The notes under the pieces were generated by a model. The model saw nothing but the letters and a program-made list of their open reading frames with translations. It had not been told where the DNA came from and ran no database searches. Source: an uncultured Clostridia bacterium (GTDB lineage Bacteria > Bacillota > Clostridia > Christensenellales > Aristaeellaceae). Taken from it: 36,985 nt of DNA. Both the position numbers and the translations under genes were made by a program. Numbering within the stretch: the first letter of the stretch is position 1; each line of letters opens with the position of its first letter. Below, one piece after another: positions 15,059 through 36,819 of the stretch. The stretch is taken from positions 1-36,985 of the forward strand of contig CAMFCQ010000022.1 of NCBI GenBank assembly GCA_945948915.1. Direction: 5' to 3'.

Positions 15059-15085
15059 TAAATTATCAGAAAAGGAGACTTGACT

Positions 15086-16159
15086 ATGAAGAAACTGTTT
15101 GCGCTCCTGATGGCCGCCGTGCTCACGCTGTCCTTTGCGTGCGCTGCCAGCGCCGAAATCGATCCGGCCCTGATCGCCGCCGCACAGGAGGATGGCGAGC
15201 TGATCGTCTACGGTTCCTGCGAGGAGCCGTATGTGGCTGCCGCTGCCAAGCACTTTGAGGAGCTTTACGGCATCAAGACCTACTATCAGCGTCTGTCCAC
15301 CGGCGAGGTGCAGGCGAAGATCACCGAGGAAGCGGGCAACCCGTCTGCCGACGTCTGGTTCGGCGGCACGACCGATCCTTACAACGAGAGCGCCAAGGCC
15401 GGCTTGCTGCTGCCCTATGAGGCGGCCAACGCTGCGGACCTGGCTGCCGACATGTACCGCGATGCGGACGGCGCCTGGTACGGCATCTACAAGGGCATTC
15501 TGGGCTTCATGGTCAACACCGAAGAGCTGCAGCGCCTGGGCCTGGAGGCCCCCAAGGGCTGGGATGACCTGCTCAAGCCGGAATACAAGGGCCTGATCTG
15601 GATGTCCAACCCGAACACCGCCGGCACGGCGAAGCTCATCATCAACACCATGGTGCAGATGAAGGGCCATGACGAGGCCATGAAGTACTTCGTGGAGCTG
15701 GACAAGAACATCGCCCAGTACACCAAGTCCGGCTCCGGCCCGTCCAAGAAGGTCGGCATCGGCGAGTGCGTCATCGGCATCGGCTTCCTGCATGACGGCA
15801 TTGCGCAGATCCTGCAGGGCTATGACAACATCGCGCTGATCATCCCGGAGGAGGGTACCTCCTTTGAAATCGGCGCTACCGCGATCTTCGACGGCTGCGC
15901 GCACGAGAACGCCGCGAAGCTGTGGATCGAGTATGCGCTCTCTCCGGAGTGCGTGGAGCTGGCGGACGATGCCGAGAGCTATCAGTTCCTGGTCATCAAC
16001 AGCGCGAAGCAGCCCGCCGCGATTGAGCCGTTCGGCCTGGATCCCAACAACGTGATCAATTATGACTTTGAGGACGCGAAGAACAACACCAAGCAGTATG
16101 TGGCGGACTTCTTCGACGCGCTGGGCGACGCTGCGGACAGCCGCTTCAAGACCGAGTAA
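15086..16159 (+). CDS. ABC importer substrate-binding protein (Fbp/AfuA-like)
   Basis: A 357-residue extracytoplasmic binding protein of the iron(III)/phosphonate-type family (AfuA/FbpA-like). A signal peptide covers residues 1-23 (MKKLFALLMAAVLTL...ASA, cleaved before EIDP). The mature part has LIVYGSCEEPYV, RLSTGEVQAKI, the DVWFGGTTDPY motif and AGTAKLIINTMVQ, all typical. There is no clear lipobox: SFAC is a poor match. An AAAGGAGA site seven bases before the ATG sets the start. It leads a three-gene importer with a fused permease and an ATPase. Iron, phosphonate and polyamine-like substrates cannot be separated by sequence alone. Confidence 0.88.
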   Translation: MKKLFALLMAAVLTLSFACAASAEIDPALIAAAQEDGELIVYGSCEEPYVAAAAKHFEELYGIKTYYQRLSTGEVQAKITEEAGNPSADVWFGGTTDPYNESAKAGLLLPYEAANAADLAADMYRDADGAWYGIYKGILGFMVNTEELQRLGLEAPKGWDDLLKPEYKGLIWMSNPNTAGTAKLIINTMVQMKGHDEAMKYFVELDKNIAQYTKSGSGPSKKVGIGECVIGIGFLHDGIAQILQGYDNIALIIPEEGTSFEIGATAIFDGCAHENAAKLWIEYALSPECVELADDAESYQFLVINSAKQPAAIEPFGLDPNNVINYDFEDAKNNTKQYVADFFDALGDAADSRFKTE

Positions 16160-16411
16160 CCGGCGTTCCGCCGACTCGGGCAGCTCTTCGGGCCTGCTCC
16201 TCACGGCATCTTCCGCGCAGAGAGCGCTCCTGTGCCCCGCTCTGCGGGGGATAAGCGAAGTTTCGTTTGTGAGCCGCGAAGCGAAGATGGAAGGCTGAGG
16301 GATGAACCCCTCAGGCAGGTTTTAGGGCGGCAGCCCGAACGTACCTATCGACTTTCCACGGGGGATGGGGTAAAGCCCCATCCCTCTTTCTATATCAGCA
16401 AAGAGGGGGGA
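16160..16411. other. Gap between binding protein and permease genes
   Basis: The 252 bases hold no gene. They contain a small CCCCGC-GCGGGG hairpin near 16230-16248 and the repeat copy at 16274. As intergenic structure after a binding-protein gene, they may reduce read-through to the permease. Confidence 0.5.
16274..16345. repeat. Intergenic repeat family copy
   Basis: CGCGAAGCGAAGATGGAAGG, then CTGAGGG at 16295-16301 pairing with CCCTCAG at 16308-16314 around ATGAAC, then GGCAGGTTTTAGGGCGGCAGCCCGAACG. The order of parts matches the copy at 19451. Confidence 0.65.
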
Positions 16412-18352
16412 ATGCCCGTGAAAACACGCCAAGGCGCGGCGCTGGAGCGCAAAAAGTTCTTTGCCGATCCGGTGATGGTGATCACCATCGCGCTGCTCAC
16501 TGTGCTGCTCGCGCTGTTTATTCTCTATCCGCTGGCCATGCTGCTGCTGGACAGCGTGTATGTGCGTGAGACCAAGCTCGTGCTTGTCACCGACGTTCTT
16601 GCAGGAACAGCGGACACAGAGATCAAGGACGGCACGATTCAGGTGCTCAACAAGAAGGGCGAGACAGCGAAGTTCGCCGTCGATGATCTGAATGCCGCGT
16701 GGGGCTATCTGTTTGCCAAGAACGGACGCGTGCTCAAGGAGGGCGATGCGATCGACCCGGCGAACTGCTATGTCAAGGTGCAGAAGAATCAGCTGACCCT
16801 TGACGCGTTCCCGCGCATTTTCGCCGATTACACGTTCAACAACGCATTCTTCAACACGCTCAAGCTGGGCATGATCACCAGTTTCGGCTCGGTCATCATC
16901 GGCCTGCTGTTTGCGTATGTGGACTGCTATGTCAACGTGCGCAGCCGCACGGTGAAGAAGATGTTCGACGTGGTGTCAACCCTGCCGGTCGTCTCCCCGC
17001 CGTTCGTGCTGTCGCTGTCGATGATCCTGCTCTTTGGCCGCGGCGGCCTGATTACCCGCGAGCTGCTGCACATCTACGACAGCAACGTGTATGGCCTGTG
17101 GGGCATCGCCATCGTGCAGACGCTCACGTTCTTCCCGGTGTGCTACATGATGCTCAAGGGCCTGCTCAAGAACATCGATCCTTCGATGGAGGAGGCGGCG
17201 CGCAACATGGGCGCGGGCCGCATGAAGGTGTTCACCACCGTGACCCTGCCGCTGATGCTGCCGGGCCTGGGCAATGCGTTCCTGGTCACGTTCATCGAGT
17301 CCGTCGCAGACTTCGCGAACCCGATGATGATCGGCGGCAGCTATGACACGCTGGCCACGACGATCTACCTGCGCATCACCGGCGGCAGCTACGACACCAA
17401 CGGCGCGGCTGCCATGGCCGTCGTGCTCCTGTGCATCACGCTGCTGCTGTTCCTCATCCAGAAGTATTATCTGGAGGCGAAGACCGCCGCGACGCTGACC
17501 GGCAAGGCCAGCCGCGCCCGCGCGCTGATTGACGACAAGAGCGTGCGCGTGCCGCTGACGACGATCTGCTCCGTGATCTCCGCGTTCGTCATCATGATGT
17601 ACATTGCCATCCCGTTCGGCGCGCTGTTCAAGCTGTGGGGCCGCGATTACAGCCTGAGCCTCAAGTGGTTCAATCAGCTCTTCCGCGACGACGGCTTCAA
17701 GGCGTTCACCGACAGCTTCATGCTCTCCCTGATCGCCAGCCCGATCACGGCGCTGCTGTCCATGATCATCTCCTATCTGGTGGTCAAGAAGAAGTTCCGC
17801 GGCAAGGCGTTCATCGAGTTCGTCTCCATGCTGGCCATGGCCGTGCCGGGCACGGTGCTGGGCGTGGGCTACATCCGCGGCTTTGCGGGCGGCGTCTTCC
17901 GCACGGGCTTCATGCAGGGCATCTATGGCACGGGCATCATCCTGGTGATCGTGTTCGTCGTGCGTTCGCTGCCGGTTGGCACGCGCAGCGGCATCTCCGC
18001 CCTGCGGCAGATCGACAAATCGATCGAGGAATCGGCGTACGATCTGGGCGCGGGCAGCGCAAAGGTGTTTACCACGGTGACGCTGCCGCTGATCAAGGAT
18101 TCGTTCCTCAGCGGTCTGGTGACGACGTTCGTGCGCTCCATCACCGCCATCAGCGCGGTGATCCTGCTGGTGACGCCGCGCTATCTGCTCATCACCTGCC
18201 GCATCAACGAGTTCGCGGAGAAGGGCGCGTACGGCGTGGCCTGTGCGTATGCGACGATTCTGATACTCATCACCTACGCGGCGATCGTGCTGATGAACTG
18301 GGTGATTGCGCATTTCGGAACGAGCAAGGCGGTTCGCCTGAAGGAGGATTAA
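16412..18352 (+). CDS. Fused ABC permease, two BPD domains (FbpB-like)
   Basis: A 646-residue membrane protein with two fused binding-protein-dependent permease domains, as in FbpB/SfuB-type iron importers. Each domain has its EAA loop for the ATPase: EEAARNMGAGRMKVFTTVTLP (259-280, first) and a matching EESAYDLGAGSAKVF block (539-553, second). The first helix is at about 21-47. An unusual hydrophilic stretch of some 80 residues (about 49-130, with KDGTIQVLNKKGE and FAKNGRVLKEGD) sits before the first permease domain and should face outward. GAGG lies five bases before the ATG at 16412; a GTG at 16418 is possible. The ATPase gene starts one base after the stop. Confidence 0.92.
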   Translation: MPVKTRQGAALERKKFFADPVMVITIALLTVLLALFILYPLAMLLLDSVYVRETKLVLVTDVLAGTADTEIKDGTIQVLNKKGETAKFAVDDLNAAWGYLFAKNGRVLKEGDAIDPANCYVKVQKNQLTLDAFPRIFADYTFNNAFFNTLKLGMITSFGSVIIGLLFAYVDCYVNVRSRTVKKMFDVVSTLPVVSPPFVLSLSMILLFGRGGLITRELLHIYDSNVYGLWGIAIVQTLTFFPVCYMMLKGLLKNIDPSMEEAARNMGAGRMKVFTTVTLPLMLPGLGNAFLVTFIESVADFANPMMIGGSYDTLATTIYLRITGGSYDTNGAAAMAVVLLCITLLLFLIQKYYLEAKTAATLTGKASRARALIDDKSVRVPLTTICSVISAFVIMMYIAIPFGALFKLWGRDYSLSLKWFNQLFRDDGFKAFTDSFMLSLIASPITALLSMIISYLVVKKKFRGKAFIEFVSMLAMAVPGTVLGVGYIRGFAGGVFRTGFMQGIYGTGIILVIVFVVRSLPVGTRSGISALRQIDKSIEESAYDLGAGSAKVFTTVTLPLIKDSFLSGLVTTFVRSITAISAVILLVTPRYLLITCRINEFAEKGAYGVACAYATILILITYAAIVLMNWVIAHFGTSKAVRLKED

Positions 18353-27532: not shown

Positions 27533-28516
27533 TTAGTACTTGCGCTCAGCGATGACGTCGGCAGCCTTCACGGACAGCAGCTCGCCGGCCTCGTCATACG
27601 CGATGCCGCCCTCGGCGCAGAACACGCCCTCGGCCGGGTGCAGGAGCTCGCGGGTGCCTTCCTCGCCGGCTTCCAGCTTCTTGATCAGCTCGGCAACGGC
27701 GTCGCCGTACAGCGGGTTGCACTCGATGGTGGCGTTCATGTCGCCCGCAACGATGGCGTCAAACGCAGCCTTGACGGAGTCGCAGCCAACGATGATGATG
27801 TCCTTGCCCGGAACCTTGCCGGCGGCCTTGATGGCGTCGATGGCGCCCAGGGCCATGTCGTCGTTCTCCGCGAGGAGGACGTCGATGTCGTCATGCGCCT
27901 TCAGGAAGCTCTCCATGACGGCCTGGCCTTCAGCACGGGTGAAGTTGCCGGTCTGGGAAGCGATGACCTTGAAGTTCGGATGCGCGGCGAAGATCTCGTT
28001 GATGCCGGCGGTACGGTCGGTCGCAGCAGCGGCGCCGGTGGTGCCTTCCAGGATCACGACGTTGACGTCTTCGGTGGTGTTGAAGTAGTTGACGGTCCAG
28101 CGGGCCATGCGGCGGCCTTCCTCGACGAAGTCACCGCCGAACGCGCCGACGTAATCGATGGACTCCATGCAGTCGGGCATGCGGTCGATCAGCAGCAGCG
28201 GGATCTCCGCCTCGTTGACTTCCTTGAGGACCTCGTCCCAGCCGGTGGTCACAACGCCGGTGAAGAGGATGTAATCGACGCCCTGGGTGATGAAGTTACG
28301 CAGAGCCTTGACCTGATTCTCCTGCTTCTGCTGCGCGTCGTCATACACCATCGTCCAGCCTTCCTTCTCGGCCATGGCCTTCAGGCTGTCGGTGTTGGCG
28401 GTGCGCCAGTCGGACTCCTGGCCCACCTGGGAGAAGCCGATGGTCAGTGCGGAAGCGTTGGCGACGCAGCCGATCACGAGCACAAGGGCCAGAGCGAGGG
28501 TAAGGAACTTCTTCAT
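27533..28516 (-). CDS. Sugar-binding protein, YtfQ-type
   Basis: A 327-residue periplasmic-type binding protein that closely parallels E. coli YtfQ (galactofuranose). LTIGFSQVGQESDWR directly follows the signal peptide, followed by KQENQVKALRNFITQGVD, the VTTGWDEVLKEVNEAEIP block, then GAAAATDRTAG, QTGNFTRAEGQAVMESF and AENDDMALGAI. The signal peptide could be cut after ANASA by signal peptidase I; VIGC at 14-17 also fits a lipobox, so lipoprotein status is open. It is the first gene of the pentose operon, with its own promoter. The genes for arabinose breakdown suggest L-arabinose or arabinofuranose as ligand. Confidence 0.93.
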   Translation of the reverse strand: MKKFLTLALALVLVIGCVANASALTIGFSQVGQESDWRTANTDSLKAMAEKEGWTMVYDDAQQKQENQVKALRNFITQGVDYILFTGVVTTGWDEVLKEVNEAEIPLLLIDRMPDCMESIDYVGAFGGDFVEEGRRMARWTVNYFNTTEDVNVVILEGTTGAAAATDRTAGINEIFAAHPNFKVIASQTGNFTRAEGQAVMESFLKAHDDIDVLLAENDDMALGAIDAIKAAGKVPGKDIIIVGCDSVKAAFDAIVAGDMNATIECNPLYGDAVAELIKKLEAGEEGTRELLHPAEGVFCAEGGIAYDEAGELLSVKAADVIAERKY

Positions 28517-28798: not shown

Positions 28799-30175
28799 AT
28801 GAACATTGAACAGTGCGTTTCTTCCCTGAGCATGCCGCTGCCGGAGGATATCATGAAGCGCAAGTGGGCGGGCGACCTCGACGGCGCGGTGAAGGCGATT
28901 GACCTGCGTCTGCAGCAGCCCCTGCCTGAGATGCTGCGCGCGCGCCTGGTGTGCGAAAAGGAGCGCATCCGCCGCCTGCCCACGCAGTACCCGTATGACC
29001 GCGCGCAGGCGCTTGCCAAGCTGAGCGAGCTGATCGGTCAGGACGTGAGCGAGGCGGAGTTTGAGCGGCTGGAGCTTGCTGGCTGGGTGGACTTCATCTA
29101 TATCGGCGGCGAAAAGCGCTACTTCGTGCGCTTCCACCGCAGCATGCTCAAGAACGGCGCGCTTGCGCACCTGACCGGACAGGCGAAGAACCCTGCGCAT
29201 GCCTACCTGGATCCGATGATCGAAGAGATCATGGAGAAGGGCGAGGCCAAACGCCGCATCACGCTGAAGGCGAGTCTGTATGTTGACAAGGAAGCGTTTG
29301 TCCCCGGCGAGTATCTGGCGCACCTGCCGCTTCCGATTGAGGACGCGCAGCAGAGCGACGTGCGGCTGCTTGACGGCGACCCGGACGGCCTGGGCGATGC
29401 GCACGCGCAGGCGCGCACCATGTACTGGCGCAGGACGCTGGACGCGTGGCGCACGTTTGACGCGACGTACAGCTACGTCAGCCATATCCGCTATGCCGAT
29501 CCGCTGGGCAGGCCCGCGCCCGACGCGCCGCTGTATCCTGCCTGCGCGGCGCCCTGCGAGGAGGATCTCGGCGAGCACGGCGCGTATATGCGCTTCACGC
29601 CGTACCTGCGCCAGCTGGCCGCGGAGATCACGGCGGGGGAGACGGGCGACGTGATGAAGGCGTGGCGGATTTACGAGTTCGTGACGACGAAGGTCACCTA
29701 TTCCTTCGTGCGCGACTATTTCCAGCTGGACAATCAGGGCGAGTACTGCGCGGTGAATCTCAAGGGCGACTGCGGATTGCAGGCGCTGCTGTTCATCCTC
29801 CTGTGCCGGATCAGCGGGATTCCTGCGCGCTGGCAGAGCGGCATGTCCATCGACGAGCACTATGCAGGCAGCCACGACTGGGCGCAGTTCTACCTCCCGG
29901 GCTGGGGCTGGCTCTTCGCGGATCCCAGCTACGGCGGCAGCGCGTACCGCGCGGGCAGCGAAAAGCGCCACAGGTTCTACTTCGGCAACCTGGATCCCAT
30001 GCGTATGGCGGCCAACCGCATGTATCAGGCGGAGCTGACGCCGCCCAAGACCCAGCTGCGCGTGGATCCGTTTGACAATCAGTCCGGCGAGATCGAGCGC
30101 ATCGGCGCGCCGCTGCCCTTCACCATGCGCCAGCTGGATTGCGACGTGGCGCTTCTTGCATGCCAGAGGCTGTAA
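28799..30175 (+). CDS. Transglutaminase-like domain protein
   Basis: A 458-residue protein with a C-terminal transglutaminase/protease-like fold. The catalytic triad is visible: C325 in LKGDCGLQALLF, H359 in GSHDWAQFYLPGWGW and D375 in FADPSYGG. The N-terminal 220 residues are charged and helical (RARLVCEKERIRRLP), with no domain I recognise. There is no signal peptide, so it should be cytosolic. GGAGG lies ten bases before the ATG. It is transcribed away from the pentose operon and in the same direction as opp. It may be a peptidase acting on imported peptides, but this is inference; the substrate is unknown. Confidence 0.85.
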   Translation: MNIEQCVSSLSMPLPEDIMKRKWAGDLDGAVKAIDLRLQQPLPEMLRARLVCEKERIRRLPTQYPYDRAQALAKLSELIGQDVSEAEFERLELAGWVDFIYIGGEKRYFVRFHRSMLKNGALAHLTGQAKNPAHAYLDPMIEEIMEKGEAKRRITLKASLYVDKEAFVPGEYLAHLPLPIEDAQQSDVRLLDGDPDGLGDAHAQARTMYWRRTLDAWRTFDATYSYVSHIRYADPLGRPAPDAPLYPACAAPCEEDLGEHGAYMRFTPYLRQLAAEITAGETGDVMKAWRIYEFVTTKVTYSFVRDYFQLDNQGEYCAVNLKGDCGLQALLFILLCRISGIPARWQSGMSIDEHYAGSHDWAQFYLPGWGWLFADPSYGGSAYRAGSEKRHRFYFGNLDPMRMAANRMYQAELTPPKTQLRVDPFDNQSGEIERIGAPLPFTMRQLDCDVALLACQRL

Positions 30176-30367: not shown

Positions 30368-32230
30368 ATGAAGAAACTGATGGCGCTTGCGCTTTGCCTG
30401 GCCGTTGCGCTGAGCATGGCTGTGATGCCTGCCGCTGCGCAGGGCACGGCTTACCGCACGCTGTATTCCGGTGAATTCACTTCGCTCAACTATCTGACCA
30501 CCGCGACGACCAACGAATTCGCGATGGCCGCCAATGTCATCGACACCCTGGTGGAGTACGACAAGTACGGCCAGGTTCAGCCGTCTCTGGCTGAAAGCTG
30601 GGAGTATGACGAGGAGAACCTGACCTACACCTTCAAGCTCCGTGAGGACGCGACCTGGGTGCGCGCCGACGGCACCGAGTATGCCAAGGTGACGGCCAAC
30701 GACTTCGTCACCGCCGCGAAGTACATCCTGGATGCGAACAACGCCTCCTCGACCGCCAACATCTTCTACTCCGTCATCGCCGGCGCCGAGGCGTACTACC
30801 TGGGCACCAGCACCCCGGAGGAGGGCAAGGAGCCTTATCCGGTGATGGACTGGGACACCGTCGGCGTGAAGGCGCTGGATGACTACACCCTGCAGTACAC
30901 GCTGGTCGAGCCGGTTCCCTACTTCCTGTCCATGGTGACCTATGTGTGCTTCATGCCGGTGAACGCGGATTTCCTCGCGGAGAAGGGCGCGGACTTCGGC
31001 GTGGCCACCAGCAACGAGAACATCCTGTACAACGGCGCCTATGTGCTCTCCACCTTCGAGCCGCAGCAGAAGCGCGTGTACACCAAGAACGCCTCCAACT
31101 GGGATGCGGACAACGTCCTGATTGAGACCATCGAGCAGACCTACAACAAGGAAGCGACCACCATCGCGCCGGAGCTGTACAAGCGCGGCGATATCGATCA
31201 GGCGGACATCGATTCGACCATCGCCGCCGAGTGGCTGGCGGACGAGACGACGGCCGATCTGATCCATCCGCTTCGTCAGACCGGCTTCTATACCTATTTC
31301 TACGCATTCAACTTCGACCCGAACTTCGATGCGGCGTACGAGCCGGAGAACTGGAAGCTCGCGGTCAACAACGAGAACTTCCGCCTGTCCATCGCCGCGG
31401 GCCTTGACCGCGTGAAGGCGATGCTCATCACCGATCCGGACAACCCGGAGGCGCTGATCTTCAACACCGTCACCCCGCCGGAGTTCGTCTCCATCGACGG
31501 CGTGGACTACACGGAGATGGGCGCGCTGGCGGAGATCACCGCCAAGGGCGTGGATACCTTCGACGAGGCGCTGGCCCTTGAGTACAAGGCCGCTGCCGTC
31601 AGCGAGCTGACCGCCGCGGGCGCGACCTTCCCGGTCAAGGTGCTCATGTGCTACAACCCGTCCTCCACCGGCTGGGCCGAGGAGTGCGTGGTGGTCGAGC
31701 AGCAGCTTGAGGCTCTGCTGGGCAGCGATTACATCGACGTGATCGTCGAGGCCGGCCCGTCCTCCGGCTTCCTCAAGGAGATCCGCCGCAGCGGCAAGTA
31801 CGCGCTGCTCAAGTGCAACTGGGGCCCGGACTACGCCGATCCGAATACCTATACCGATCCGTTCTACGACGGCTCCTACAACTGGCCGGAGCTGGCGCAG
31901 GGATATAACGACGAGAACGGCCGCAGCCAATATTACAACCTGGTGGACGCCGCCCGTGCGATCACCAACGACCTGTCCGCCCGCTACGAGGCGTTTGCCG
32001 AGGCGGAGGCGTTCCTCATCAACAAGGCGTTCCTGATCCCGTTTGGCTACGGCACCGGCGGCTATGACGCTTCCCGCCTGAATCCGTTCGAGTCCCAGTT
32101 CGCGCCGTTCGGCATTTCCAGAGAGCGCTACAAGGGTCAGAGCGTGATGGAGAAGCCGATGAATACCGACGAGTACTTCGAGGCCTATGATCAGTGGGAA
32201 GAGGATCGCGCCGCGCTGGCGGGCAAGTAA
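30368..32230 (+). CDS. oppA: Oligopeptide ABC transporter substrate-binding protein
   Basis: A 620-residue extracytoplasmic peptide-binding protein of family 5. The signal peptide covers about 1-24 (MKKLMALALCLAVALSM...PAAA). The mature chain has LYSGEFTSLNYLTT, SLAESWEYDEENLTYTFKLR, DFVTAAKYIL and the NWGPDYADPNTYTDPF segment near the C-terminus. It has no lipobox before the predicted cut, which is unusual for a Gram-positive OppA. The GGGGGAA site before the ATG is clear. It leads the operon oppA-B-C-D-F. The strong hairpin after it probably keeps its level above that of the membrane parts. Confidence 0.94.
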   Translation: MKKLMALALCLAVALSMAVMPAAAQGTAYRTLYSGEFTSLNYLTTATTNEFAMAANVIDTLVEYDKYGQVQPSLAESWEYDEENLTYTFKLREDATWVRADGTEYAKVTANDFVTAAKYILDANNASSTANIFYSVIAGAEAYYLGTSTPEEGKEPYPVMDWDTVGVKALDDYTLQYTLVEPVPYFLSMVTYVCFMPVNADFLAEKGADFGVATSNENILYNGAYVLSTFEPQQKRVYTKNASNWDADNVLIETIEQTYNKEATTIAPELYKRGDIDQADIDSTIAAEWLADETTADLIHPLRQTGFYTYFYAFNFDPNFDAAYEPENWKLAVNNENFRLSIAAGLDRVKAMLITDPDNPEALIFNTVTPPEFVSIDGVDYTEMGALAEITAKGVDTFDEALALEYKAAAVSELTAAGATFPVKVLMCYNPSSTGWAEECVVVEQQLEALLGSDYIDVIVEAGPSSGFLKEIRRSGKYALLKCNWGPDYADPNTYTDPFYDGSYNWPELAQGYNDENGRSQYYNLVDAARAITNDLSARYEAFAEAEAFLINKAFLIPFGYGTGGYDASRLNPFESQFAPFGISRERYKGQSVMEKPMNTDEYFEAYDQWEEDRAALAGK

Positions 32231-32438: not shown

Positions 32439-33380
32439 ATGCTGAAATACTCCCTGAAGAGGCTGTCCTCCTCGTTTCTGACGCTGCTGATCATCATTTC
32501 GGTGGTCTTTGTTCTGCTGCGCCAGATGCCGATCGAGGGCTATTTTGATAATTTTGAGAAGGCGGACGAGGCGATGATCCAGGCCAAGCTCAACCAGCTG
32601 GGCCTCAACGATCCGATCCCCGTGCAGCTGCTCAACTTCTTCAAGGATTTGCTGCACGGCGACCTGGGCACCTCCGCGCGCTACAGCGTGGGCGCGCCGA
32701 TTGCCGGCATCATCGCCAAGAAGGCGCCGCTGTCCATCAAGATGGGCGTGCTCTCCATGGCGCTGTCGCTGGTGCTGGGCATCCCGCTGGGTGCGGCGAT
32801 GGCCAAGGGCAAGGGCAAATTCTGGGACAAGTTCGGCACGGTGTACATCGTGTTCATCAACGCGGTGCCTGCGGCGGTGTACTATATCTTTATCCAGCTC
32901 TACGGCACCAGCTTCCTGGGCATACCCATGCTCTTTGACGAGGCCAATCCGGTCACCTGGATCCTGCCGGTGTTCTCCATGTCGTTGGGCAATGTCGCCT
33001 ACTACGCGATGTGGCTGCGCCGCTACATGGTGGACGAGCTGAACAAGGATTACGTCCGTCTGGCGCGCGCCAAGGGCGTATCCGGCAAGAACATCATGAT
33101 GAAGCACGTGCTGCGCAACGCGTTTGTGCCGATGATCCAGTACATCCCGACCTCGCTGCTCTACACCGTCTGCGGCTCCATCTACATCGAATCGCTCTAT
33201 TCCATCCCGGGCATGGGCGGCCTGCTGGTGGACGTCATCGGCCGTCAGGACAATCCGATGGTTCAGGCCATCGTCATGATTTACAGCTGTATCGGCATCG
33301 TCGGCCTGCTGCTGGGCGACCTGCTCATGGGCCTGATTGATCCGCGCATCAGCTTTGTGAAGAAGGAAGGTGCGCGCTGA
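32439..33380 (+). CDS. oppB: Oligopeptide ABC transporter permease OppB
   Basis: A 313-residue permease with six membrane helices. The N-terminus MLKYSLKRLSSSFLTLLIIISVVF is typical. ARAKGVSGKNIMMKHVLRNAFVPM is the EAA loop, and the C-terminal part has IPGMGGLLVDVIGRQDNPMVQ. The long extracytoplasmic section after helix one is normal for OppB. No strong ribosome site precedes the ATG (AAAGAG). It overlaps or abuts oppC. Confidence 0.94.
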   Translation: MLKYSLKRLSSSFLTLLIIISVVFVLLRQMPIEGYFDNFEKADEAMIQAKLNQLGLNDPIPVQLLNFFKDLLHGDLGTSARYSVGAPIAGIIAKKAPLSIKMGVLSMALSLVLGIPLGAAMAKGKGKFWDKFGTVYIVFINAVPAAVYYIFIQLYGTSFLGIPMLFDEANPVTWILPVFSMSLGNVAYYAMWLRRYMVDELNKDYVRLARAKGVSGKNIMMKHVLRNAFVPMIQYIPTSLLYTVCGSIYIESLYSIPGMGGLLVDVIGRQDNPMVQAIVMIYSCIGIVGLLLGDLLMGLIDPRISFVKKEGAR

Positions 33381-33381
33381 T

Positions 33382-34395
33382 ATGCTGAGCATCAAGGAAA
33401 ACAAGAGCAAAAAGCTGGAGGCTGCCCTCAGCGCGCAGCTTGAGCAGGAGCTTGACGCGGCGTGCGCGCTTGACGAGGACGCCCTGTTTGAGGTAGCGGA
33501 GTACGACGAGACGGCGGGCGAGAAGACCGGCTATTCCAATTACTCCTACTGGCGCTCCACGCTGCAGGTGTTTCTCAAAAACAAGGTGGCGGTCGTCCTG
33601 CTGTTCGTGCTGGCGGGCCTGCTGCTGTTCACGTTCATTCAGCCCTATCTGCCGGGCCAGTACCCGGCCAACCAGATCAACAACAACCCGCAGACCGGCA
33701 AGCAGCTCTCCAATCTCTCGCCGAGCCTGACGACCGTGCTGATCACCGCGCCGGAAGGGACGGTGCTCAGCGCTGCGCCTGTCAAGGGCAGCGAGGGCTG
33801 GTACGCGGTGAACAACGTGCTGGAAACCCTGCAGGCCCGCACGAAGTTCACCCTCATCGAGTACGGCGAAACGTGGTGCAAGATCGAATACAAGGGGAAG
33901 ACCGGCTACGTCAAGAACAACTTCCAGACCAAGCTGAAGCTGCCGGACGATCCGACGGCCACGCCGTACGAGAGCCGCTCCAACTTCAAATTGGAGATGT
34001 ACATGGAGCCGCAGGACTACACCAACAACGGCACCGCGCTGTATGTGGAGGAAAGCCAGCTGGCCCTTCATGAGGACGGCACAGCGACCACCGCCAGAGA
34101 GGCGGAGCTGCGCGTGCTGCCCAGTGAGCACGCCTTCTGGTTCGGCACCAACAACATCGGTCAGGACCTCTGGGCCCGCGTCTGGAGCGGCACCCGCACG
34201 AGCCTGCTGATCGGCTTCATCGTCGCGCTGGTGGAGGCGCTCGTCGGCATTACCGTTGGCGTGCTGTGGGGCTATGTGCGCAGCCTTGACCGCATCCTCA
34301 CCGAGATCTACAACGTGGTGGACAACATTCCCCAGACGATCATCCTGATCCTGATTTCCTACATCATGCGTCCGGGCTTCGGCACGCTGGTCTGA
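33382..34395 (+). CDS. oppC: OppC permease, N-terminal part, frameshifted
   Basis: This frame encodes the first 337 residues of OppC. It has a cytosolic acidic N-terminus (1-67), helix one (about 68-86), then NQINNNPQTGKQLSNLSP and the FWFGTNNIGQDLWARVWSGTRTS block that starts the permease core at 252. Between about 114 and 250 lies an insertion absent from ordinary OppC. Its middle (142-182, ending CKIEYKGKTGYVKNNF) resembles a bacterial SH3 domain. The frame stops at 34393 just after RPGFGTLV. The ATG at 33382 is preferred over the GTG at 33370, as AAGGAAGG precedes it. The rest of OppC is in another frame at 34395-34829. Confidence 0.88.
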   Translation: MLSIKENKSKKLEAALSAQLEQELDAACALDEDALFEVAEYDETAGEKTGYSNYSYWRSTLQVFLKNKVAVVLLFVLAGLLLFTFIQPYLPGQYPANQINNNPQTGKQLSNLSPSLTTVLITAPEGTVLSAAPVKGSEGWYAVNNVLETLQARTKFTLIEYGETWCKIEYKGKTGYVKNNFQTKLKLPDDPTATPYESRSNFKLEMYMEPQDYTNNGTALYVEESQLALHEDGTATTAREAELRVLPSEHAFWFGTNNIGQDLWARVWSGTRTSLLIGFIVALVEALVGITVGVLWGYVRSLDRILTEIYNVVDNIPQTIILILISYIMRPGFGTLV

Positions 34396-34829
34396 GGACG
34401 CTGATTTTCGCCATGTGTCTGACCGGCTGGCTGGGCATGGCGCGCTTCATCCGCAACCAGATCGTCATCATCCGCGACCGCGACTACAACCTTGCCTCCC
34501 GCTGCCTGGGCACGGGCACGACGCGCATCATCATGAAGAACCTGCTGCCGTATCTGGTCTCGGTCATCATGCTGCGCCTGGCGCTGTCCATCCCCGGCGC
34601 GATCGGCAACGAGGTGTTCATCACCTATATCGGCCTGGGCCTGCCGGTGGACATGCCGTCCCTGGGCAACCTGATCAACGAGGGCCGCAAGCTCGTCACC
34701 TCCGAGACGCTGCGCTACCAGCTCATCTTCCCGGCGATTGTGCTGTCCGTCGTGACCATTTCCTTCTACATCATCGGCAATGCCTTTGCGGACGCCGCCG
34801 ATCCCAAGAACCACATGTACAAGTCCTGA
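34395..34829 (+). CDS. oppC: OppC permease, C-terminal part, shifted frame
   Basis: This frame continues OppC, from about TLIFAMCLTGWLGMARFIRN through ASRCLGTGTTRIIMKNLLPYL (the EAA loop) to NEVFITYIGLGLPVD and a final membrane helix. It lacks a start and ribosome site of its own; the first ATG is at 34413. Between the two frames the hexamer ACGCTG occurs at 34384 and 34398. Removing the 14 bases from the first to just before the second restores GFGTLIFAMCLTGW, the expected family sequence. So the frame break is best explained by a 14-base insertion, whether genuine or an assembly error. Confidence 0.88.
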   Translation, partial: RTLIFAMCLTGWLGMARFIRNQIVIIRDRDYNLASRCLGTGTTRIIMKNLLPYLVSVIMLRLALSIPGAIGNEVFITYIGLGLPVDMPSLGNLINEGRKLVTSETLRYQLIFPAIVLSVVTISFYIIGNAFADAADPKNHMYKS

Positions 34830-34844: not shown

Positions 34845-35883
34845 ATGGAAGAAAGAGAGACCGTCCTTTCGGTCCGCGATCTCAACATCAAATTCAGCCT
34901 GCGCGGCCGCACGCTGCACGCCATCCGCGACGTGTCGCTGGACCTGTACAAGGGCGAAAGCCTGGCGATCGTCGGCGAGTCCGGCTCCGGCAAGTCCGTC
35001 TTCGTCAAGAGCTTCATGGGCCTGCTGGACGCGAACGGCTGGGTGGACAGCGGCGAGATTCTCTATGGCGGCGAGGATCTGACGAAGTACAGCACAGAAA
35101 AGCAGTGGCTGAAGGTGCGCGGCAAGGAGATCGCCATGGTCCTGCAGGACCCGATGACGAGCCTCAACCCGCTCAAGACCATCGGCGCGCAGATCATGGA
35201 GGCCGTCGAGCTGCACCAGAACCTGCGCGGCGAGGCTGCGCGCAGGGAGATGCTCTCCGTGCTCACCGACGTGGGCATCAGCGAGCCGGAGCGCCGCGCC
35301 AAACAGTATCCGCATGAGTTCTCCGGCGGCATGCGCCAGCGCGTGGTCATCGCCATCGCCGTGGCCTGCCGCCCCAAGATCCTCATCTGCGACGAGCCGA
35401 CGACCGCGCTGGATGTGACCATTCAGGCGCAGATCCTCAGCCTGATCCGCAGCCTGAAGAGCAAGTACGACCTGACCACCGTCTACATCACGCACGACCT
35501 GGGCGTCGTCGCCAACGTGGCGGACCGCATTGCGGTCATGTACGCGGGCGACATCGTGGAGATCGGCCTGTGCGAGGAGGTCTTCTATCAGCCCAAGCAT
35601 CCGTATACCTGGGCGCTGCTCAGCTCCCTGCCGCAGCTGGGCGTGAAGGGCGAGCCGCTGTATTCCATTCACGGCACGCCGCCCAATCTCTTTGGCGAGG
35701 TGAAGGGCGACGCGTTTGCCCCGCGCAATCCGCGGGCGCTGAAGATCGACTTCGTGAAGCGTCCGCCGTATTTCGAGGTTTCTCCGACGCACAAAGCGCG
35801 CACCTGGCTGCTGGACCCGCGCGCCCCGAAGATCGAGCCGCCGGAGGCTGTCCGCAAGCTGGCAACGGAAGGAGTGAAGGGCT

Positions 35884-35891
<8 letters not shown>
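34845..35891 (+). CDS. oppD: Oligopeptide ABC transporter ATPase OppD
   Basis: A 348-residue ATPase with Walker A GESGSGKS (44-51), [14 protein letters not shown], the signature FSGGMRQRV and Walker [12 protein letters not shown], then a [11 protein letters not shown]-loop. The C-terminal oligopeptide/dipeptide region includes [20 protein letters not shown] and [20 protein letters not shown] lies ten bases before the ATG. It is intact despite the frame break in oppC just upstream. Confidence 0.95.

Positions 35892-36819
<928 letters not shown>

Follow-up and report, generated by a model that had tools for sequence, protein, structure and literature searches.

The permease MalF of the type I importer MalFGK2 carries a folded extracytoplasmic domain, P2, which lies just ahead of the permease core on the docking side and reportedly interacts with MalE. 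The scoop of the B subunit DppB, about 30 residues forming two short helices, follows the first transmembrane helix (TM1) and reaches the binding protein (PMC12136057; this and the other PMC-numbered sources are cited from their available parts). An extracellular SH3b-like domain is described for the ATP-binding cassette (ABC) transporter TagGH of B. subtilis (PMC11466899). The OppC chains with solved structures, from E. coli OppBCDF (8z21) and M. tuberculosis OppABCD (8j5q-t), are 273-288 residues long, too short to accommodate such a domain in the loop between TM1 and TM2. In this study, we analysed a stretch of 36,985 nucleotides (the window; GenBank assembly GCA_945948915.1, contig CAMFCQ010000022.1, positions 1 to 36,985) from an uncultured Clostridia bacterium of the family Aristaeellaceae, order Christensenellales. 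Its 3' end is an oppABCDF operon on the + strand, and the oppC gene of this operon encodes an OppC permease whose TM1-TM2 loop has gained a folded domain of beta structure, about 135 residues long. Like MalF P2, the insert stands before the permease core on the binding-protein side, but no homology between the two was found, MalF being aligned in its core only among the matches listed. It shares with the DppB scoop a place after TM1 on that same side and differs in its 135 residues, its beta structure and its location in the C subunit, whereas TagGH is an exporter and bears its SH3b-like domain C-terminally on the ATPase subunit via a long linker. No earlier report of an OppC or ABC permease with an SH3 domain insert was found in the literature searched, which did not extend to subscription sources; PMC9019972, considered as a precedent for such an OppC, is unrelated in its available part.

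The open reading frame (ORF) that holds the insert runs from a cytoplasmic tail through TM1 (the OppC_N helix) and the surplus stretch to FWFGTNNIGQDLW and the start of the permease core. Its features are as follows.

33370 to 34395, + strand: oppC, N-terminal part of a broken gene, 341 amino acids; OppC_N (PF12911) matched at E=2.3e-9 and 37.4 bits, above the cut-off of 23.9, and SH3_3 at E=4.6e-5 and 23.9 bits, below the cut-off of 27.
33727 to 34131, + strand: the apparently lineage-specific extracytoplasmic insert, residues ~120-254, delimited by alignment with insertless relatives.
33817 to 33918, + strand: SH3b-like part, residues 150-183, matched by Pfam SH3_3 and by 2kt8.
33946 to 34119, + strand: second beta part, about residues 193-250, six short strands by DSSP of the model.

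An earlier note on this DNA had placed an insertion at 33723 to 34133 and counted some 140 residues between two motifs that lie close together in ordinary OppC. Both points hold: about 135 surplus residues lie between TM1 and FWFGTN, and of the 22 loci at which a scan of a genome collection found relatives, 18 have 149-153 residues between the NNxP-type motif and FWFGT and the other four have 17-18. The proposal of an SH3b part at residues 142-182 agrees with the Pfam match. When the insert is scored alone, SH3_3 rises above its gathering cut-off (E=2.2e-6, 28.2 bits against 27), and hmmsearch relates the insert to the SH3b domain of PDB entry 2kt8 at E=1.1e-4; SH3_3 matches 16 of 19 inserts at E<=1. 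The second beta part matches no Pfam family above its cut-off. AlphaFold (AF2) folds the stretch LSNLSPS..SEHA (residues 113-255, positions 33706-34134) into a confident, beta-rich domain (predicted local distance difference test, pLDDT, 90.3; predicted template modelling score, pTM, 0.81). The fold of the whole chain agrees with an OppC permease. Because of the break in the gene, its halves were scored separately with the OppC equivalog NF043080 and reach 152.2 and 162.8 bits, against a cut-off of 370.

The same note had contrasted the insertion with ordinary OppC and had suggested alignment with clostridial relatives, which bears it out. The 18 insert-bearing loci of the scan are 54-87% identical to the window; many of the scanned records come from the hindgut of deer, sheep, goat or buffalo, and two are Candidatus Avichristensenella and Alectryocaccomicrobium. 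In a search of 41 genomes (25 of the window's genus, its own included, and 16 of other families in the order), nine gave a match that spans the insert, all of them in the genus. In the order, 297 genomes were sampled and 5 of them, again counting the window's own and all within its family, have the full insert; in the class, 391 were sampled and only the window's own has it, this sample having two genomes of the family. The class sample also holds 12 orthologues without the insert, whose cores are 69-78% identical to that of L035 and whose matches start only at residue 245-256; their ORFs span 281-378 amino acids, and the short loop was measured directly in nine and judged by ORF length in three. 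The idea that the insert is a common feature of OppC is rejected for the samples taken, which show it in a single clostridial lineage. In a tree of 36 OppC cores (22 with and 14 without the insert, L170 repeating L048), from which the window was excluded on account of its broken core, the trait requires one change (Shimodaira-Hasegawa-like approximate likelihood ratio test, SH-aLRT, 92), in keeping with a single origin. Orthologues so close in the core, with and without the domain, amount to a clean before-and-after pair, in which the contribution of an extracytoplasmic permease domain can be tested directly.

As to function, we lean, with a likelihood a little short of even, towards a platform on which the substrate-binding protein (SBP) OppA is docked or retained. 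By the topology given in PMC12136057, the insert occupies an extracytoplasmic loop ahead of the permease core on the side of the binding protein. It would project from the permease beside the entrance of the translocation path, touch OppA, and hold or orient it, raising its local concentration on a cell that secretes OppA without a lipid anchor. Such a platform would be comparable to MalF P2 or the DppB scoop, built here from an SH3b-type fold without the usual LNxR element. Across 17 loci, divergence of the insert correlates with that of OppA, OppB and its own OppC core at r of 0.87, 0.87 and 0.71, with partial values of 0.43, 0.53 and -0.45. The insert thus seems to track OppA and OppB more closely than its own core, which lends weak support, because the pairs are non-independent and rates differ.

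The partner proteins were compared at their N-termini. The OppA start is readable at 21 distinct loci with the insert (L046, whose start is missing, and L170, the same record as L048, are left out); of these, 20 lack a lipobox, 19 being signal-peptide-like and L171 having a hydrophobic start, and L041 has one. The OppA of L171 (2479-4542, - strand) has a signal-like start and then a long spacer resembling a coiled coil; the start may serve as a membrane anchor that is not cleaved. At 16 insertless loci (L053, L157 and L165 had unreadable starts), OppA has a lipobox in 12 (L161 by eye) and none in four (L054, L164, L166 and L167). Of the 32 SBP loci in the window's genome, 28 have an assignable start and 4 do not; on a recount by eye, 25 of the 28 are without a lipobox and three are lipobox-like, two of them ambiguous. 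By the script's pattern, which missed a lipobox of L189 seen by eye and several of whose seven flagged starts are ambiguous, a lipobox is also lacking from 43 of the 50 starts that could be assigned in four further genomes of the family (51 starts were taken of 95 matches at E<=1e-15, and none from G018 and G179). By contrast, a lipobox is present in 25 of 28 SBP starts from four genomes of other families (29 were taken of 39). The binding proteins of the family, mostly without a lipobox, include those encoded at 15080-16159 and 27533-28516 of the window and at SBP loci of G000, G059, G214, G225 and G266.

In Gram-positive bacteria, SBPs make up a large proportion of lipoproteins (PMC7530257). 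The window's family seems to be monoderm by one marker, since Omp85 was found in none of 40 sampled family genomes by a search that detected it in 7 of 14 controls. The window's genome encodes LspA and can therefore process lipoproteins, yet most of its binding proteins have no lipobox. The insert and the scarcity of lipoboxes together raise the question of how an apparently monoderm cell retains unanchored binding proteins. The literature search found nothing on lipoproteins and SBPs of the Christensenellales within the same scope. A broader account, in which a monoderm family largely abandoned lipid anchors on its SBPs and a captured SH3b-type domain on the Opp permease keeps OppA at the membrane, is rather improbable in our judgement.

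Several observations weigh against a docking or retention platform. The putative contact between insert and OppA is one that we infer, single chains alone having been folded, and the distance correlations are rough, as is plain from the negative partial value for the core. As lipoboxes are lacking family-wide, their link with the insert is only suggestive; it may reflect one lineage event in a family whose SBPs mostly have none. The lipobox pattern follows kinship, L164, L166 and L167 belonging to the window's genus. L041 combines the insert with a lipobox-bearing OppA, and L164, of the same genus, together with L166, L167 and L054, has neither insert nor lipobox, the OppA proteins of L166 and L167 being only 31-32% identical to that of the window. 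Moreover, among the 62 permease matches listed for the window's genome (of a total of 75, by eye), 53 lie in ORFs shorter than 450 amino acids, so that such a domain is seemingly not generally needed. A general rule that permeases gain outward domains because SBPs are unanchored is not supported by these ORF lengths.

Three further permeases of the window's genome, in which the first and second transmembrane helices are widely separated, leave that rule alive. One is a two-part ABC permease of 706 amino acids in the window (16232-18352), its first two predicted helices centred at 90 and 221. The second is an OppB-like permease, the second of its kind in this genome (L254, G000:C11, 2144-3796, - strand), with about 280 residues between predicted TM1 and TM2. 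The third is an ABC permease of 844 amino acids (L253, G000:C10, 403-2934, + strand), in which about 220 residues separate predicted TM1 from TM2.

Alternatively, the insert could be a wall-facing SH3b domain that binds peptidoglycan or teichoic polymers and fixes the importer near the wall or feeds muropeptides to OppA, which we consider unlikely. The likeness to SH3b and SH3_3 domains (2kt8, 2kyb, 2kq8) covers profile positions 15-50 of 54. However, the insert has an extra beta part behind the matched one, is nested in a permease loop and has no LNxR-like element ahead of the matched part, an element detected by script in 16 of 22 SH3b domains of other proteins and in none of 19 inserts. These 22 domains, from 11 of 16 loci given, were chosen by a motif at their opposite end, and by eye five of the six domains without the element have a near variant of it. 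In the C. perfringens autolysin domain SH3b6, strand beta2 and the beta2-beta3 loop contribute to what is proposed as the main ligand pocket (PMC8470621), whereas lysostaphin has its ligand between beta1/beta2 and the RT loop (PMC6461655); the LNxR element would belong to this ligand-pocket region. We therefore call the insert SH3b-like rather than a canonical wall-binding SH3b. Holding an unanchored OppA is more likely than sticking to the cell wall. Of what the earlier note had suggested, the SH3b-like domain stands, the positioning of OppA is somewhat favoured, and wall binding comes out weaker.

It is likewise doubtful that the insert is a structural spacer or a neutral decoration, acquired by chance and retained as a stably folding, harmless domain. 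It does diverge faster, with a mean pairwise identity of 0.59 in 17 loci (19 were given, and L168 and L169 were dropped by the script) against 0.87 for the OppC core and 0.76 for OppA, and the 12 insertless orthologues do without it. On the other hand, the motif distance is nearly constant over the 18 insert-bearing loci of the scan, although by another measure L171 exceeds the window by 13 residues (178 against 165), and 17 of the 19 columns that are invariant in 19 aligned stretches fall within the insert proper.

That the insert is an assembly or annotation artefact, as a genome in 158 contigs and a 14-base frame break in the same gene might suggest, has a negligible chance and is rejected, the frame being open through it in 18 other records (18 of the 22 scanned loci) and the break lying about 260 bases downstream and being absent from 14 aligned relatives.

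For the frame break itself, an artefact is likely. The OppC frame ends at 34395, and the C-terminal half resumes in another frame. The 5' flank of the extra bases is the GFGTLV variant as in L035-L039, and the 3' flank reads like the LRTLI...TGW variant of L040 and L049. The simplest cause is probably an assembly join of strain variants, and a real mutation is also possible. The break and the other genes of the operon, with which oppC is grouped, are located as follows.

30368 to 32230, + strand: oppA, SBP_bac_5, with a signal peptide ending AAAQ (PAAAQ) and no lipobox.
32439 to 33380, + strand: oppB, by ORF and profile matches.
34391 to 34404, + strand: 14 extra bases breaking the oppC frame, absent from 14 of 14 aligned relatives in the DNA alignment.
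34413 to 34829, + strand: oppC, C-terminal half in a different frame; BPD_transp_1 at E=2e-19 and 70.5 bits, against a cut-off of 26.4.
34845 to 35891, + strand: oppD ATPase, by ORF and profile matches.
35884 to 36819, + strand: oppF ATPase, by ORF and profile matches.

Directly upstream of oppA, at 28799-30175 of the window, lies a transglutaminase-like gene without an evident signal peptide, and 11 of the 18 scanned loci with the insert have, in the same place, an ORF similar to it by its start.
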